A DNA stretch of 32,177 nt from an uncultured Alphaproteobacteria bacterium (GTDB lineage Bacteria > Pseudomonadota > Alphaproteobacteria > RF32 > CAG-239), in NCBI GenBank assembly GCA_944390895.1, contig CALXRQ010000019.1:1-32177 (forward strand). The letters run 5' to 3'. The translations under genes were made by a program, and so were the position numbers. Numbering within the stretch: the first letter of the stretch is position 1; each line of letters starts with the position of its first letter. Under the pieces are notes generated by a model. That model was not told where the DNA came from, did not search any database, and worked only from the letters and a program-made list of their open reading frames with translations. Below, piece by piece: positions 4,965 to 32,039 of the stretch.

Positions 4965-7900
4965 ATGTCAAATCAACAAGTTGACAACAACAGCTCGGCC
5001 AAAAGTGATTCGTCTTTGCCGGGGTTTATGTCTGAAGCCAGCAGCATTAATTATAACGAAGAAGCAGAAAACGGAAGCTGGTTAAACAATAATCTGACCA
5101 GACTGATGATTTCCATCAGCGTAATCTGGTTTATCATCGTACTGATTTACATTACCCAGTTTTTTGGCTGGTCCAACCTTTTCCTGATGATGCCCGACGA
5201 GTTTGGTGCGTTTCTGGCCGGTATAACGCTGCCTTTGGCAATTATCTGGGTCGTTATGGCTTATATCGACCGCGGCAACAGTTTTAAGAACGAAGCCAGA
5301 TTTCTCCGCGCATATATGAATCAGCTCGTTTATCCCGAAGACGGCGGTGCCAACACTGCCAAAGCCATGGCCGACGCCATCCGTTCCCAGGTGGTTGAAC
5401 TCCATGAGGTTACCAAACATGCAACCGAGCAAACCGAAAAGATAAAAAAGGAACTGAGCGCTCGGGTTAACGATTTCTCCAAACTTGTCAACACGCTGGA
5501 CAATTATTCTACCAAGACGATTGTCGAATTGTCCGACGGCGTCAAAACCCTGGTTGAAAACTTTGAATATGTAACTGAACGCGCGCAGAATTCCACCCAG
5601 ATGTTTAAGGGTTACATTAATGATTTTTCTGCTACGGCCGCTGGTCTGGAAAACAACTGCGGCGAGCTCTTCGGTAAAATCATTCCTCACATTCAGGAGC
5701 TTAAAACCTCGTCTCAGCTGCTCCAGAGTATGGCCGATGACAACAATTCCAAAATGGATAAGGCCAATCAGGCTCTGCTTGACTTTGGCAACCGTGCGTC
5801 TGAAAGCGTAAACAATGTGATTCAGATTCTCGATTCTCAGACGTCGCGGCTTGAAGAAGTTGCCAACGACGCCGTATCCGTTTGTGACAACATCTATGGC
5901 AAGATAGACGGTGGTGTTAGCAAAATAGACGAAGTTTTGCGAGGACAGAGCGAAGCGGTTGAAAGGTATTTGGGCAAGCTGAATGAAGAAAGCGACGTTT
6001 TGGCTTCAAAATTCAGCGATCACAGCGCCATGATTTCCATGGAAGTCGACAAAATTATTACCCGTTCCAATTTGATAGAAGAAAGCGTAGCCACGCAGGT
6101 TAATCAGCTTCAGGGCGTTTCCGATGAGATTTTTGACAATATTAAAGGCGTGGAAAATCGTCTGACTGCCGGTTCTGTCGCTTTGGAAAAACGTTCGGCA
6201 GAAATTGTTGACAATATACAGAACGTGGTTTCTTCGGCCGAAAACAACACCGCTAAACTGACAGCTTTGTCGGATCAGTATATTGCCAAGTCTGCCGCCT
6301 TGTCCGAAGATGTCGGAAGCCGTAGTGAAACTTTGCAGAAGGTCAGTGACGGTATTGTCCTGAACTTGAAGTTGCTGCTTCAGGAACTCGGAGCAAGCAC
6401 CATAGGATTGAAAGAACAGGCGGATGTTTCCAGAAAAGAGCTTGAGGATATCGGCGCCGTTATCAGCAAACATACCGACAATCTTAAAGAGGCCGCGTCT
6501 TTGGTCGTTGCTCAAAGCAAGGTCGGCGAAAATTCTTTGATTCAGCAGCAGAAAAACATTGCGGAATCCGTCAACCGAATTGAAGAAATAAAAGTTGAGC
6601 TCAAATACCAGATTGACGAGCTGACCCGCGCCGCGTCTTATCTGACGCAGGAAGCCGAAACGACCGTCGGACAGCTTAAACAGCAGATGGGCGAAACGCT
6701 TTCTTCCTGCAATGACGTTGTCGCCAAGACCAAAATGGTCAGTGCCAGCCTCAACGAGCAGGCCGGTGTTTTTGACAACACGGCAGATCAGGCCTTGAAC
6801 AAAGTTATTCAAATGGAAAATATTCTGAATAGTCATTATCAGGAACTGGATAAAATTTCTCGGAGCGTCTCCGAACGTGCGGAGAATGTGTCCGAGGTCT
6901 TGGAAAAACAGGCCGCCAACATCAACGTTGCCACCGCCAATTCCGATAATACGTTTCAGCAGATTACGGAAGCTTTTGCCCGCCAGAACGAAACACTGGA
7001 CAAGATTACCGGCGCAACCGTCAACCATGTGGCGGATGTGGTTCAGCTTTTGGATGAAAAGGCTGAAAATATTAATCTGTTGTTCAAACAGCAGGAAAAC
7101 GAGTTTTTCAATATTTGCGACCGTTTAACCGAAAACACCGACAATATGGGCAACAATCTCAAAAAACAGGTTGCCGTTATTGAACAGAACGCCGATAAGG
7201 TTTTTGCCCGGATGACGCTTTTGGAAGAGGATGTCAACAAAAGGGTTGAGGCGGTTGTCGCTAACTCCGTCAAATCAATCGACAAGCTTTCGGAGGTTAA
7301 TCAGTCGATTGCCGTGCAGAACAATGACGTCAGCAAGTTCATTCAGCAGATTTCCGATAAAATTGCGCAAATTGCCGCGGCTTTCAGAGAAAATTTCCAG
7401 GTTTTCAACAACACGGTCAAAGATCTTACCGTCAGCTCGGACGAGTTCACCAATTCTATTTTGGACAACTGTGATAAAATTAATGCAGCCAATCAAAATC
7501 TGGCAGCCGAAAGCAGAAATACGACCGATGTTTTGGATGCACAGGCCAAAAATATTGATAAGGTCTTAAACCGGACCGTCAGCCAGACGGATTCCATCCG
7601 CGAAAGTTTTGAACACCAGCGCGAGGTTCTGACTGACATTGTCAATACCGTGGCCACGCAAACCCGCCTGGGTGAGGCCTCTTTGGCGCAGCAGTATAAA
7701 TATCTTTCCGACACCTCGACCGAAGTTGCCCAGCGCGTTAACGAAATCAACAACAACTTCAAAAACAGCACCGATACCATATTTGAAACTTCGGCCAAAA
7801 TTGCCTATGAGTTTAATGTGCTGGGCGACAGGCTGCTTAAAGTCAACGATGACATCAACAAATCTTCCCGCGATTCGATTAAGAACGTCGAGCAGGTTAA

Positions 7901-8969
7901 TATGTCCTTGAGCCAGCTGGTTGACGATTTGGCGGTCAATGTTAACAGTTCCAGCAATAAAATCGGCAATGTAATGAAAGATTATGAAAAATACATAGCC
8001 AACTTCAATACGGTTACGGCCGAAGCCAGCAGCGGCGTTTTTGAAATCAACAATCTCATTTCCGCCCAGAGCGACAAGATGATTAAGATTTCCGAAGACA
8101 CCAAACAGCTGGTGGAATGCTTCAATACCGTTTTGAACGATACGTCGCTCCAGCTCTCCAACCGTGCCAATATGGCCTATGAAAAGGTCAAAGGCCTCGG
8201 CGAGAACCTGAAAGTTTTGAGTATGCAGATGGAAGAGGCGACCAAGATGAGCTCCACCCATTTTGAAAACTCAAGCGGCAAACTGCGCGCAACCTTGAAT
8301 GAAGTTGCCGCCAATGCCGAGCGCATTTCCAACGAAATCCGCTCTTCGGGCGAAGTCTTCCTGAAACAGTCCGGAGTTTTGGTTGTCGCAACCGACGATA
8401 CGTTGAAAAAAGTCAACGATGTCATGAATGTCTTAAATGACAGCACCAACGAATTTTCGGCCAAGGGCGACGACATTATCAAAAAATCAATTTCCTTCAG
8501 CGATGTTGTCAACAAACAGCTTAAGGTTTTGAACGAAACCTCGCAGAAAGCCGACGGCAAGCTGGCCGAGCTCGAAAAGCGCTATGAGGGCGTGCGTGTC
8601 GACAGTTTCCTGAAAGACGCTTCTTATATTATAGAGAAACTGGAAACCGTTTCGGTCGACATCAACCGTATTTTTAACCCGGCGGCGGAAGAGGAAATCT
8701 GGAAGAAATATTATAACGGCGATACGGCGGCCTTTGTGCGCTACCTTTCCAAAACCATGACCAAACAGCAGGTTTTGGCTATCCGCGGCGAGTTTGAAAA
8801 GAATATGGAGTTTCGCACGCTGGTAACCAAATATCTGTCCGAGTTTGAATCTCTTATAACCAAGGCCAGAACCAACGAACGTTCGGGCATTCTGCTGTCG
8901 GTCATTTCCGGCGCCGATATCGGCAAGGTATATTATATTCTGGCCAGAGCGTTGGATAAACTGAACTAA
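4965..8969 (+). CDS. giant membrane-anchored coiled-coil protein, TipN-like layout
   Basis: This 1334-residue protein has a polar N-terminus (1-45), two membrane segments (about 47-66 and 80-101), then more than 1,100 residues of almost uninterrupted helical coiled coil. The coil is rich in Asn, Asp, Glu, Lys, Val and Ile. A final region of about 95 residues (from about 1240) looks globular and less repetitive (WKKYYNGDTAAFVRYLSK ... DIGKVYYILARALDKLN). Parts of the coil repeat: the segment from residue 514 (VVAQSKVGENSLIQQQ) resembles that from 896 (VATQTRLGEASLAQQY). Two N-terminal membrane helices plus a huge cytoplasmic coil is the layout of the Caulobacter pole marker TipN, which is shorter at about 890 residues. 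A structural role in polarity or cell shape is an inference. A chemoreceptor is unlikely, as no signalling hairpin is seen. GGGGA at 4951-4955 fits the chosen ATG. Confidence 0.8.
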   Translation: MSNQQVDNNSSAKSDSSLPGFMSEASSINYNEEAENGSWLNNNLTRLMISISVIWFIIVLIYITQFFGWSNLFLMMPDEFGAFLAGITLPLAIIWVVMAYIDRGNSFKNEARFLRAYMNQLVYPEDGGANTAKAMADAIRSQVVELHEVTKHATEQTEKIKKELSARVNDFSKLVNTLDNYSTKTIVELSDGVKTLVENFEYVTERAQNSTQMFKGYINDFSATAAGLENNCGELFGKIIPHIQELKTSSQLLQSMADDNNSKMDKANQALLDFGNRASESVNNVIQILDSQTSRLEEVANDAVSVCDNIYGKIDGGVSKIDEVLRGQSEAVERYLGKLNEESDVLASKFSDHSAMISMEVDKIITRSNLIEESVATQVNQLQGVSDEIFDNIKGVENRLTAGSVALEKRSAEIVDNIQNVVSSAENNTAKLTALSDQYIAKSAALSEDVGSRSETLQKVSDGIVLNLKLLLQELGASTIGLKEQADVSRKELEDIGAVISKHTDNLKEAASLVVAQSKVGENSLIQQQKNIAESVNRIEEIKVELKYQIDELTRAASYLTQEAETTVGQLKQQMGETLSSCNDVVAKTKMVSASLNEQAGVFDNTADQALNKVIQMENILNSHYQELDKISRSVSERAENVSEVLEKQAANINVATANSDNTFQQITEAFARQNETLDKITGATVNHVADVVQLLDEKAENINLLFKQQENEFFNICDRLTENTDNMGNNLKKQVAVIEQNADKVFARMTLLEEDVNKRVEAVVANSVKSIDKLSEVNQSIAVQNNDVSKFIQQISDKIAQIAAAFRENFQVFNNTVKDLTVSSDEFTNSILDNCDKINAANQNLAAESRNTTDVLDAQAKNIDKVLNRTVSQTDSIRESFEHQREVLTDIVNTVATQTRLGEASLAQQYKYLSDTSTEVAQRVNEINNNFKNSTDTIFETSAKIAYEFNVLGDRLLKVNDDINKSSRDSIKNVEQVNMSLSQLVDDLAVNVNSSSNKIGNVMKDYEKYIANFNTVTAEASSGVFEINNLISAQSDKMIKISEDTKQLVECFNTVLNDTSLQLSNRANMAYEKVKGLGENLKVLSMQMEEATKMSSTHFENSSGKLRATLNEVAANAERISNEIRSSGEVFLKQSGVLVVATDDTLKKVNDVMNVLNDSTNEFSAKGDDIIKKSISFSDVVNKQLKVLNETSQKADGKLAELEKRYEGVRVDSFLKDASYIIEKLETVSVDINRIFNPAAEEEIWKKYYNGDTAAFVRYLSKTMTKQQVLAIRGEFEKNMEFRTLVTKYLSEFESLITKARTNERSGILLSVISGADIGKVYYILARALDKLN

Positions 8970-28499: not shown

Positions 28500-28913
28500 A
28501 TGAATAAGTCTGAAATCATCAGCCGTGCAGCTTTGCACCTGAGAATATTCAATTTTCGTTTTGTCAGTGATGTTGAAAATATCGTTTTTTTCAGAAGCAT
28601 TATGGCCGTTAAGCTTCAGGATGTTCTCGAAACAATTCCCCATATATGCAAATATTATAAGAAAGACTGCGGTATGGTTTTGTTTTTAGAGCTTGGTCTG
28701 GCATACGGATATGTCCGTTTTGTCTGCATCGGACCTGAAAAACTCCTTCAAAAACTGACCGATTCTTACGGCGGATACGTTCGTGACGGCTTTGTCTGGA
28801 TTTTGTTTGACGAGATGAACACGCCCCGCGGCATTCGCCGTGAGACGATTGACCGCGGCGCAGCCCTTGCCGCCGAAGACATCCATCGGCAAATGCGGAA
28901 TTGGCTGAATTGA
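28500..28913 (+). CDS. hypothetical protein (137 residues)
   Basis: I do not recognise this protein. It is soluble and mixed alpha/beta, with no signal peptide or membrane helix. It contains AVKLQDVLETIPHICKYYKKDC, a hydrophobic LFLELGLAYGYVRFVCIGPEKLL and a C-terminal helix ETIDRGAALAAEDIHRQMRNWLN. There is no Shine-Dalgarno sequence before the ATG. A four-codon frame (ATG at 28493, TAA overlapping the gene start) lies just upstream and could couple initiation. It ends at a strong terminator shared with galE and has its own candidate promoter, so it is probably a single-gene unit. Codon use looks like that of its neighbours. Confidence 0.7.
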   Translation: MNKSEIISRAALHLRIFNFRFVSDVENIVFFRSIMAVKLQDVLETIPHICKYYKKDCGMVLFLELGLAYGYVRFVCIGPEKLLQKLTDSYGGYVRDGFVWILFDEMNTPRGIRRETIDRGAALAAEDIHRQMRNWLN

Positions 28914-30046: not shown

Positions 30047-30667
30047 ATGAGCATCTTGTCAGTCAGTTCTTTATTGCAGCCCTTAAATACGTTTGGAAAA
30101 CGTTCAGACGGCATTGGCGCCGCTGTCGAAGCCCCGAAAACCGATGAGGCTTATATCCTTGATTTGTCTGATCGGAAAAATGTCGGCATATCTGCGGAAA
30201 AATCGTCGGTTTCAGGTGGTATGAGTTATGGTTCCTTGCTGAAAAGCGTGCAGGAACAAACGGTTAATGTTCAAGATCGTCTGACGCGACTGCTCTTGTC
30301 GCGCAATATAGACTATAGTGAAAACATCAAGTTCAAAATAGATGACAACGGCAAGATCCGGGTTGACGGCGAAAATGCCGGCAAAGAAGCCATTGAACAG
30401 GTTTTGAACGAAGATTCCGAATTTTCCGCAGAGTTGAAAAGACTGCTGAACGATGCTTCGGATTTGGCCCGGGAAGAGGTCCAGCAAAAATATCAAATTG
30501 CTCTGGAAGATGACGAAAATAAAGACGACGAAGAAAAAAAGCTGATGCTGGAAAACAAAGTCATAGAAATCAATAATCAGATTACAAAACTTTCGGGTTC
30601 TTTCAGTCTTGACGGCGGAAGCCTGAATATTGCTTCTCTGCAGTTTGCCGCCGGAGTAAGTTTTTAG
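30047..30667 (+). CDS. hypothetical protein (206 residues)
   Basis: I do not recognise this protein. There is no signal peptide or membrane helix. The first 70 residues look disordered and contain YILDLSDRKNVGISA. The middle has SYGSLLKSVQEQTVNVQDRLTRLLLSRNIDY followed by IKFKIDDNGKIRVDGENAGKEAIEQVLNEDSEFSAELKRLL, a beta hairpin and helix that look folded. A very acidic/basic segment (ALEDDENKDDEEKKLMLENKV) leads to a C-terminal FAAGVSF. The DxVxLS-like N-terminal pattern recalls small flagellar or secretion-associated proteins, and the unknown protein at 8980 has a similar DNVSVSG, but this is weak. AAAGGA precedes the ATG. Confidence 0.72.
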   Translation: MSILSVSSLLQPLNTFGKRSDGIGAAVEAPKTDEAYILDLSDRKNVGISAEKSSVSGGMSYGSLLKSVQEQTVNVQDRLTRLLLSRNIDYSENIKFKIDDNGKIRVDGENAGKEAIEQVLNEDSEFSAELKRLLNDASDLAREEVQQKYQIALEDDENKDDEEKKLMLENKVIEINNQITKLSGSFSLDGGSLNIASLQFAAGVSF

Positions 30668-30697: not shown

Positions 30698-30900
30698 CCT
30701 CCGACAACAAACAATAAACAAGCAGAAGGAAGCCGTCAATGTCATATACGTTTTGCGGCATAGACTTTGGCACGTCCAATTCGTCTGTCGCTGTGGCCGG
30801 TGCGGATAAATCTCCGTTGTTGGTTCCCGTGGAGAACGGCAAACCGACCATTCCGTCTACGGTTTTTTATGCGGAAGACGATCCTGCACCGCTTTTAAAT

Positions 30901-30929
30901 TTGACAAAAATCAAAAACGGTAATAACTT
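30901..30929 (+). promoter_or_regulatory. possible promoter for the CoaD-HD gene
   Basis: A perfect TTGACA (30901-30906) lies 17 bases before TAACTT (30924-30929, a weak -10). It falls inside the unrelated tail of the Hsp70 fragment, about 45 bases before the CoaD-HD start. Confidence 0.3.
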
Positions 30930-30933
30930 TTTG

Positions 30934-30956
30934 GGGTTAAAACAGATTATTAACCC
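30934..30956. repeat. inverted repeat at the end of the Hsp70 fragment
   Basis: GGGTTAA and TTAACCC form a perfect 7-base inverted repeat around a 9-base loop, just before the fragment's stop codon and 16 bases before the next gene. It could be a weak terminator, an operator site or a scar; no thymine run follows it. Confidence 0.4.
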
Positions 30957-30971
30957 TTAAAAATTATATGT

Positions 30972-32039
30972 ATGGCAACAAAAGCATTGTATGCAGGTTC
31001 CTTTGATCCTGTTCACCGCGGTCATATTGACATTGCCGCGGCCGCTGCCCGAAAATACGGCAGTTGCGTTATAGCCGTGGGCATAAATGACTGTAAAAAA
31101 CCGCTGTTTTTGCAAAGGGAGCGGGTAGAGATGGTCAGAGAGGCTCTGAACTTTTACCAAACCTACTATACGCCTCAGGAAAAGCTTGATATAGATGTCG
31201 TCAGTTATGACGGCTGTACGGTAGATATGGCAATCAAGCTCGGATGCAGCCATATTGTGCGCGGAACCCGCGGCGCTATGGATGATGACAATGAAAAACG
31301 GTTGTTTGAAATTAATCAGAAACTGCTAAAAATTCGCTTTCGGGAAGATATTGAGCAGGTTTTGATAAAGGCCTCGAAGCAATATGCTTCCGTTTCTTCT
31401 TCTGACGTCAAAGCTCTTTGCGCTGCCGGCGAATATATTCTGGCGATGAGTTATGTCTTTCCGCCGACGCACAACGAACTGATGAAAAAGTATCTCTCAA
31501 GGGAATACGAGCGTATCTCGTCCGGCTGGTGGTATGAGTTTGCCCGTTGTTTTGACGGCCGCGCCTACCACAATCTCAGTCATATCGCATATATGCTGAA
31601 CCGTTTGGAAATTTACCTGCGGAACGGTGGTGCGGTTGACGATATTGAAAATCTGCGCCGTGCAATATTTTATCATGACCTTTGCGAAACGCCGGCCGCT
31701 TCGGCAGACGCCGCGCCGTTTAAAGACCAAAACTTCCGCCGGCTGGTTATGGCGACGGACTATCTGAACGACGCTTGCAAAGCGGCTGAAAGAGACGAAC
31801 GTGTCATTAAAGACCTTGATCTGTCAATTTTGTTTGATGAGAACAATTATGCGGATTATGTGTATCGCGTTCGTGAAGAATATAAGCAATATGATATGGG
31901 GATATATGGCCGGGAACGGACAAAAGTGCTGACAAAGCTGATGAAGGAACTAGACTATAATATTTTTCCTTCTTGGACGCAGGCCAAGGCTCTCAGACAA
32001 ATGCAAAGCGAAATTGATATGCTGAACACGCTGCCGTGA
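30972..32039 (+). CDS. fusion of CoaD-like adenylyltransferase with HD-type phosphohydrolase
   Basis: A 355-residue two-domain protein. Residues 1-175 resemble phosphopantetheine adenylyltransferase (CoaD), which makes dephospho-CoA from 4'-phosphopantetheine and ATP: LYAGSFDPVHRGHIDI (H15 and H18 for the xxGH motif), DVVSYDGCTVDMA, HIVRGTRGAMDDDNE and SVSSSDVKAL. Several positions diverge: RGTR replaces the usual RGLR, and HRGH replaces the usual TNGH. Residues about 180-355 resemble predicted metal-dependent HD phosphohydrolases: AYHNLSHIAYML (H200, H204), AIFYHDL (H235, D236) and DLDLSILFDENNYADYVYRVREEY (D282/D284), so the metal ligands look intact. The NE...SA block that usually follows the HD is degraded. 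There is no Shine-Dalgarno before the ATG at 30972. A good terminator follows. Confidence 0.82.
   Translation: MATKALYAGSFDPVHRGHIDIAAAAARKYGSCVIAVGINDCKKPLFLQRERVEMVREALNFYQTYYTPQEKLDIDVVSYDGCTVDMAIKLGCSHIVRGTRGAMDDDNEKRLFEINQKLLKIRFREDIEQVLIKASKQYASVSSSDVKALCAAGEYILAMSYVFPPTHNELMKKYLSREYERISSGWWYEFARCFDGRAYHNLSHIAYMLNRLEIYLRNGGAVDDIENLRRAIFYHDLCETPAASADAAPFKDQNFRRLVMATDYLNDACKAAERDERVIKDLDLSILFDENNYADYVYRVREEYKQYDMGIYGRERTKVLTKLMKELDYNIFPSWTQAKALRQMQSEIDMLNTLP

Follow-up and report, generated by a model that had tools for sequence, protein, structure and literature searches.

What function is served by a protein that joins a nucleotidyltransferase of the CoaD type to an HD-type phosphohydrolase, and does such a protein belong to CoA metabolism? 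A gene of this kind lies near the end of the window, the whole stretch of 32,177 nucleotides analysed here (contig CALXRQ010000019.1 of the uncultured Alphaproteobacteria assembly GCA_944390895.1). We tentatively propose that it encodes a bifunctional cofactor-salvage enzyme, consisting of an adenylyltransferase and a hydrolase that would act on its products, in the manner of the NadD-YqeK fusion.

Both halves are encoded in a single reading frame

We identified one uninterrupted open reading frame (ORF) at window positions 30972..32039 (+), which runs from ATG to TGA over 355 codons (355 aa), and its translation contains neither a stop nor a frameshift between the CoaD-like and HD-type halves. 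The joining of these two domain types, put forward in a previous sequence-only reading, is borne out by this single frame together with profile matches and the ligand set of the C-terminal half. The stop codon lies 138 bases short of the contig end, the window being the whole contig. An assembly artefact was rejected as the source of the fusion, since fused-length ORFs are present in 57/153 genomes of the window's family. The features of the gene are as follows.

30972..32039 (+): fused CoaD-like/HD ORF, 355 aa (translation; fused-length ORFs in 57/153 family genomes)
30972..31472 (+): CoaD-like nucleotidyltransferase half, residues 1-167, with G9-S10-F11-D12, H18, K42, R97-G-T-R100, E108, N115 and S142-S143 (PF01467, TIGR01510, PPATs in the PDB, alignment with ordinary CoaDs, site table)
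31473..32036 (+): HD-type half, residues 168-355, start approximate (profile-profile match to a stand-alone HD family of ~205 aa; Pontibacter and Owenweeksia homologues)
31560..31583 (+): R197...H200...H204 motif, R-x-x-H-x-x-x-H (sequence, site table, stand-alone alignment)
31674..31679 (+): HD dyad H235-D236 (sequence, site table)
31812..31820 (+): last-Asp motif D281-x-D283 (site table, stand-alone alignment)

The N-terminal half is of the CoaD type

Residues 5-157 of the window protein matched CoaD in profile searches. The N-terminal half was found by PF01467 (E 3.4e-16) and by solved PPATs in a PDB search (E 3.7e-15), and the CoaD model TIGR01510 scored 96.0 bits in the protein scan and 98.1 bits in the genome scan, slightly below its curated cut-off of 103.3. 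Profiles of other types were far weaker, at 31 bits for the NadM-type and 30 bits for the best NadD-type model, and NadD-type models as a group gave 12.4-30.3 bits against cut-offs of 112-315. In addition, the window protein carries the residues of the PPAT catalytic set (H18, K42, R97, R100, E108, N115, S142 and S143), which in E. coli CoaD numbering we take to be H18, K42, R88, R91, E99, N106 and the Ser pair, E108 and N115 presumably being E99 and N106. Among the 33 fused rows of our alignment (A4), H18, R97, E108 and S142 were each kept in 33/33 and K42, R100, N115 and S143 each in 31/33, and four rows lacked K42, R100 or N115.

The window half shares the G-S-F-D-P...G-H, K42, RGxR, E108, N115 and SSS motifs with CoaD, and differs from it by a few additional residues after the NxxL segment and by the added C-terminal HD half; some fused relatives also have a longer insertion ahead of the TVD motif. 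The points of divergence raised by the sequence-only reading appear to be mostly normal variation. RGTR in place of RGLR involves T99, the variable position of RGxR, with both Arg residues kept, and the supposedly missing "NE block" is in fact represented by E108 and N115. A shift in activity through domain divergence, suggested on the same grounds, finds no support in the window copy, in which the tabulated catalytic residues are kept, but does fit several of its relatives. In the window's genome the fused gene was the only strong CoaD match of the TIGR01510 scan. A second, ordinary coaD was rejected there, as the other two matches (L003 and L004) scored 28 and 22 bits, far under the cut-off, and lie in ORFs of 149 and 165 aa.

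The C-terminal half belongs with a family of stand-alone HD proteins

HD phosphohydrolases are described as having H...HD...D ligands and an Arg about three residues ahead of the first His (PMC8177086). The window copy has R197, H200, H204, H235-D236, D281 and D283, of which R197, H200, H235-D236 and D283 answer to this pattern. The ligand set given in the sequence-only reading was thus correct for H200, H204 and H235-D236, whereas its D282/D284 were numbered one residue too high and are D281/D283. Over the 36 rows of A4 (33 fused and three stand-alone), conservation was 34 for H200, 35 for H204, 34 for H235, 33 for D236, 34 for D281, 35 for D283 and 33 for R197. D283 is the likelier ligand of the two last Asp residues because its counterpart is invariant in 24 aligned stand-alone proteins.

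When searched alone, the C-terminal half (~168-355) matched no Pfam or NCBIfam family. Its relatives were found by other means. With the HD alignment built from the family (A2) we picked up stand-alone Pontibacter proteins (L073, L093) and one from an Owenweeksia MAG (L076), all 206-208 aa long. An hhalign comparison of A2 (16 fused) with A7, which aligns 24 stand-alone proteins, gave a full-length match (200 columns, E 1.9e-48, probability 100). On this profile evidence, the C-terminal half is assigned to a family of ~205-aa stand-alone HD proteins, which we take to be COG4339. Both share the R-x-x-H-x-x-x-H, HD, D-x-D-L, E-Y and GR motifs over a full-length alignment, and the DNExRSA segment of the stand-alone family is largely gone from the window copy.

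Membership of the HD superfamily would rest on the H...HD...D ligands, the first His having an Arg at the third position ahead of it, and on weak profile links. PF01966 was matched by 3/16 fused members (best 0.017) and 2/24 stand-alone members (best E 1.9e-4), the latter against 3/24 for DUF4202, and single members matched unrelated, non-HD families with E-values that were similar or better. The HD profiles gave weak PDB matches to 3b57 (E 0.012), 3dto (E 0.0057) and 3gw7 (E 0.010), and the profile of fused and stand-alone rows together (A5) matched only a non-HD intraflagellar transport chain (E 0.12). In genomes, A5 matched 43/398 Pseudomonadota, the window's own included, and hence 42/397 others. 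Stand-alone HD relatives also occurred on plasmids, in 133 of 72,556 records (110 from Pseudomonas), all at <60% identity to the Pontibacter query (L093 2926-3546 (+)).

The fusion is patchily distributed within one family

A search of 89 genomes (the window's own and its relatives) gave mostly fused-length matches within the family and, outside it, matches to the CoaD half alone. We ran a profile of 19 fused proteins (A1) against 153 genomes of the window's family and obtained matches in 65. In 53 genomes the match spans both profile halves, with not every site necessarily kept, and in four more (G104, G037, G005 and G138) a fused-length ORF has one half degenerate or split, which gives 57 genomes with a fused-length ORF (349-436 aa). 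Seven of the 65 matches were weak and are most likely other nucleotidyltransferases. In the A1 search no fused-length ORF was found in 96/153 genomes, some of which are incomplete, so that misses are possible; among genomes that are at least 90% complete, 49/110 gave any A1 match.

The TIGR01510 cut-off of 103.3 was exceeded in 21/153 family genomes, and no strong stand-alone coaD was found by that model except in G020. This genome (59% complete) carries CoaD alone (L019), scoring above the cut-off and not followed by HD sequence, an arrangement that may represent loss of the HD half or a pre-fusion form. Across 385 genomes of the class, two-half matches were found, among the matches listed, only in four genomes of the same family. 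One scan of genome contigs used a single family-biased pattern, and its 29 fused among 32 loci are not a frequency. A record titled 'Lactobacillaceae bacterium' (L074) carries an alphaproteobacterial fusion, and its label looks wrong. The CoaD-HD fusion is patchy, and it is decayed in some relatives.

The first steps of CoA synthesis were not found in the family

CoaBC was over cut-off in 0/153 family genomes (control 14/14), as were type III PanK (control 7/14) and type I PanK, the last with two weak matches (control 10/14). CoaE, on the other hand, exceeded its cut-off in 121/153 genomes (control 12/14). Since it did so in 48/57 genomes with a fused-length ORF and in 73/96 others, CoaE and the fusion are not tightly tied. 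For the window's genome, which is rated 100% complete, no CoaE match emerged from the 20 of 33 first-look candidates that were scored. NadD was over cut-off in 1/153 family genomes (control 11/14), and NAD synthesis in the family may also be reduced.

That the fusion has its place in an ordinary CoA pathway and, as the sequence-only reading suggested, ties CoA supply to nucleotide state is not supported, with CoaBC and PanK I/III over cut-off in 0/153 genomes. Because none of these enzymes was over cut-off, the fusion looks like a salvage module, salvage being what is left. The setting resembles that of Rickettsia, for which import of dephospho-CoA, with CoaE as the one enzyme kept, has been inferred (PMC5615194), and that of mycoplasmas reported to keep only PPAT and DPCK (PMC8721197). 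The latter source also describes a HAD-DPCK fusion, in which, as in the window, a phosphatase-type domain is joined to a late CoA enzyme in organisms with few CoA genes; the partners there are HAD and CoaE, in contrast to HD and CoaD here.

The same setting bears on an unlikely alternative, a recycling loop in which the HD half supplies the substrate. It would cleave holo-acyl-carrier protein, CoA or dephospho-CoA to free 4'-phosphopantetheine, which the CoaD half would then adenylylate again. With none of CoaBC, PanK I and PanK III over cut-off, salvage or turnover would presumably have to provide the 4'-phosphopantetheine. E. coli AcpH is a member of the HD superfamily. Enzymes that free 4'-phosphopantetheine from carrier proteins are documented, PptH being one (PMC8557913). 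However, HD homologues also occur in the 42/397 other Pseudomonadota genomes, which measure 2.5 to 7.2 Mb and where CoA synthesis is probably ordinary.

Gene neighbourhoods and an unfused HD-coaD pair

We found an unfused counterpart in G637, from another alphaproteobacterial family. Here a stand-alone HD gene (L145 5010-5711 (-)) is followed by coaD (L145 4393-5013 (-)), and the TGA of the HD gene overlaps the coaD ATG at 5013 as ATGA; the longest coaD frame, with a GTG start at 5049, overlaps the HD gene further. The G637 CoaD exceeds the TIGR01510 cut-off at 127.9 bits; this MAG is rated 10% contaminated, and one or more other CoaD-type matches occur in it. We rejected the idea that the stand-alone HD gene generally shares an operon with coaD, as tblastn with four CoaD queries found no coaD within up to ~1.5 kb at any of 29 loci drawn from the 42 other A5-matching genomes. 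The stand-alone family thus differs from the window protein in having no CoaD at these 29 Pseudomonadota loci, and none fused in the three stand-alone matches.

No single conserved neighbourhood emerged over 29 fused loci and the window. Naming each cluster by one representative, we counted nrdD-type ORFs in six of these 30 sources, a radical-SAM ORF (inferred to be NrdG-type) in six, NADAR in five, rubrerythrin in four and formate-THF ligase in two. In L075, L079, L080, L081, L082, L085 and L090 the 3 kb ahead of the fusion contain an nrdD-type gene, a radical-SAM gene or both, and a NADAR gene lies close to the fusion in L078, L080, L081, L082 and L090.

The upstream nrdD-type and radical-SAM genes lend some weight to the view that the HD half is a nucleotide-pool enzyme, a (d)NTP diphosphatase like YpgQ, fused with CoaD although the two share no pathway. 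Among solved structures, the HD profiles had their best distant matches in 3b57, 3dto and 3gw7/YedJ, chains that we presume to be YpgQ-like, which points the same way. YpgQ itself is reported to be a dNTP diphosphatase (PMC8177086). The structure matches are weak (E 0.006 to 0.012), though, and the overlapping gene pair of G637, from another family, speaks for a connection with CoaD. We consider this explanation improbable beside the salvage enzyme.

Immediately upstream of the window gene, a 73-aa ORF at 30739-30960 (+) matches the N-terminus of Hsp70 from L084, where an Hsp70 gene (420-aa frame) stands ahead of the fusion, with 30/49 residues identical. The remainder of Hsp70 was not found in the window, where about the first 50 codons remain, and L077 has a still shorter stub, judged by eye, followed by another ORF; this neighbour is thus cut short in the window and in one relative. 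Elsewhere in the window, the 1334-aa ORF at 4965-8969 (+) has only a sub-cut-off Pfam match (ATG17-like, 36.2 vs 43 bits), and the ORFs at 30047-30667 (+) and 28500-28913 (+), of 206 and 137 aa, match no significant Pfam family.

Site loss and selection

We scored the HD half on six residues (R197, H200, H235, D236, D281 and D283), which were intact in 28/33 fused and 3/3 stand-alone rows of A4. The five incomplete fused rows were L010, L016, L024, L084 and L088. The window protein is closest to L084 and L077, at 52% identity to each; D236 is replaced by N in L084, and L077 is intact. In L016 and L024, HD ligands have been lost along with K42 and N115, with the frame still open. As judged by eye, the frame is also open in L148 (G005) and L150 (G037), where the N-terminal motifs are lost and the HD half is kept, and in L147 (G104) and L149 (G138), where the HD motifs are lost. 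Because G005 and G037 keep the HD half without the nucleotidyltransferase half, their sequences suggest that the HD half may have a job of its own. The window copy keeps all tabulated residues of both halves except for an extra His, having Y264 where 28/33 fused rows carry His.

In 19 genomes (171 pairs, r 0.39), not including that of the window, where CoaE was not found, mean identity was 54.4% for CoaE and 33.8% for the fusion, and the fusion therefore evolves faster than CoaE, the next enzyme of the pathway. In the trees of CoaE and of the fusion, the firm branches were too few to choose between transfer and vertical descent. Identities of the two halves co-vary (r 0.76, 528 pairs; means 40.4% for the nucleotidyltransferase and 33.3% for the HD half), as expected if both travel as one gene. 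In nine near pairs of relatives, the window copy being in none of them, dN/dS was 0.05-0.21 per half where dS was finite, with three half-comparisons saturated and many dS values >1. Both halves are under purifying selection in these pairs.

That the gene is a decaying relic without function in most of its carriers is a distinctly unlikely explanation. It would account for the 96/153 genomes in which the gene was not found, for the residue losses in several relatives, and for the low identity of the fusion relative to CoaE over the same 171 pairs. Nevertheless, open frames of 349-436 aa persist in 57 genomes, dN/dS is well below 1 for both halves, and the window copy retains its tabulated residues, Y264 apart.

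Proposed function

Under the salvage-enzyme reading, the N-terminal half, given its profile matches and kept residues, would convert 4'-phosphopantetheine and ATP into dephospho-CoA, the PPAT reaction. The 4'-phosphopantetheine would be taken up from the surroundings or arise by turnover, de novo synthesis being apparently absent, and CoaE, where present, would complete CoA. Judging from its motif and weak profile links, the C-terminal half would be a metal-dependent HD phosphohydrolase, which, tethered to its partner, would most likely hydrolyse wrong or surplus products of the nucleotidyltransferase half, by analogy with YqeK. Candidate substrates may be dephospho-CoA analogues made from dATP or other NTPs, or dephospho-CoA itself, and this is the least certain part of the proposal.

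The sequence-only reading had already named NadD-YqeK as the nearest parallel, and we agree. That fusion, found in mycoplasmas, is described as proofreading, and its NadD is reported to accept dATP, CTP and UTP (PMC9426524). In both cases a reduced genome carries a cofactor adenylyltransferase with an HD phosphohydrolase attached, and the two occur elsewhere as a clustered, unfused pair. The window protein differs in that its N-terminal half is CoaD-type and not NadD-type, and in that its HD half lacks the six-ligand dinuclear set of YqeK, H...HD...H...H...D; it has Y264 where 28/33 fused rows carry one extra His, and no second extra His was found among the conserved A4 columns that separate the HD dyad from the last Asp.

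The salvage-enzyme reading is supported by the single ORF, the sole strong CoaD match, the recurrence of the fusion, the kept residues, purifying selection and the G637 pair, and, in its setting, by upstream CoA genes that were not found and CoaE in 121/153 genomes. Against it stand the missed TIGR01510 cut-off, CoaE not found in the window's genome, the gene not found in 96/153 genomes, residue losses in relatives, the lack of coaD at 29 stand-alone HD loci and the weak, mixed HD profile links. A 2025 review also reports that in a 1984 study 4'-phosphopantetheine was not reusable by bacterial cells (PMC12570885). A move of the nucleotidyltransferase half to the NAD-type substrates NMN or NaMN is very unlikely: NadD was over cut-off in 1/153 genomes and NADAR is a close neighbour in 5/30 sources, but CoaD is the best profile by far and 21/153 genomes exceed its cut-off, G020 with CoaD alone among them.

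Among the papers listed by searches of the open-access literature, none deals with a CoaD-HD fusion or with COG4339, judged by title or opening of the abstract, which is weak evidence of absence as subscription papers were mostly outside those searches. What may be new here is a CoaD-type partner in a known kind of fusion between a cofactor adenylyltransferase and an HD hydrolase. It is also possible, if doubtful, that the HD family present in roughly a tenth of the Pseudomonadota genomes searched is an enzyme of CoA metabolism, a proofreading or recycling hydrolase for molecules of the dephospho-CoA type. The fusion and the overlapping HD-coaD pair would then reveal this role as NadD-YqeK did for NAD. 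If true, this would provide a testable function for the family in the 42/397 other Pseudomonadota genomes and on the 133 plasmid records, and would extend the pairing of a cofactor adenylyltransferase with a clean-up hydrolase from NAD to CoA. Since our searches of the window's family did not turn up the first steps of CoA synthesis, these gut alphaproteobacteria probably depend on late CoA intermediates from their neighbours or their host.
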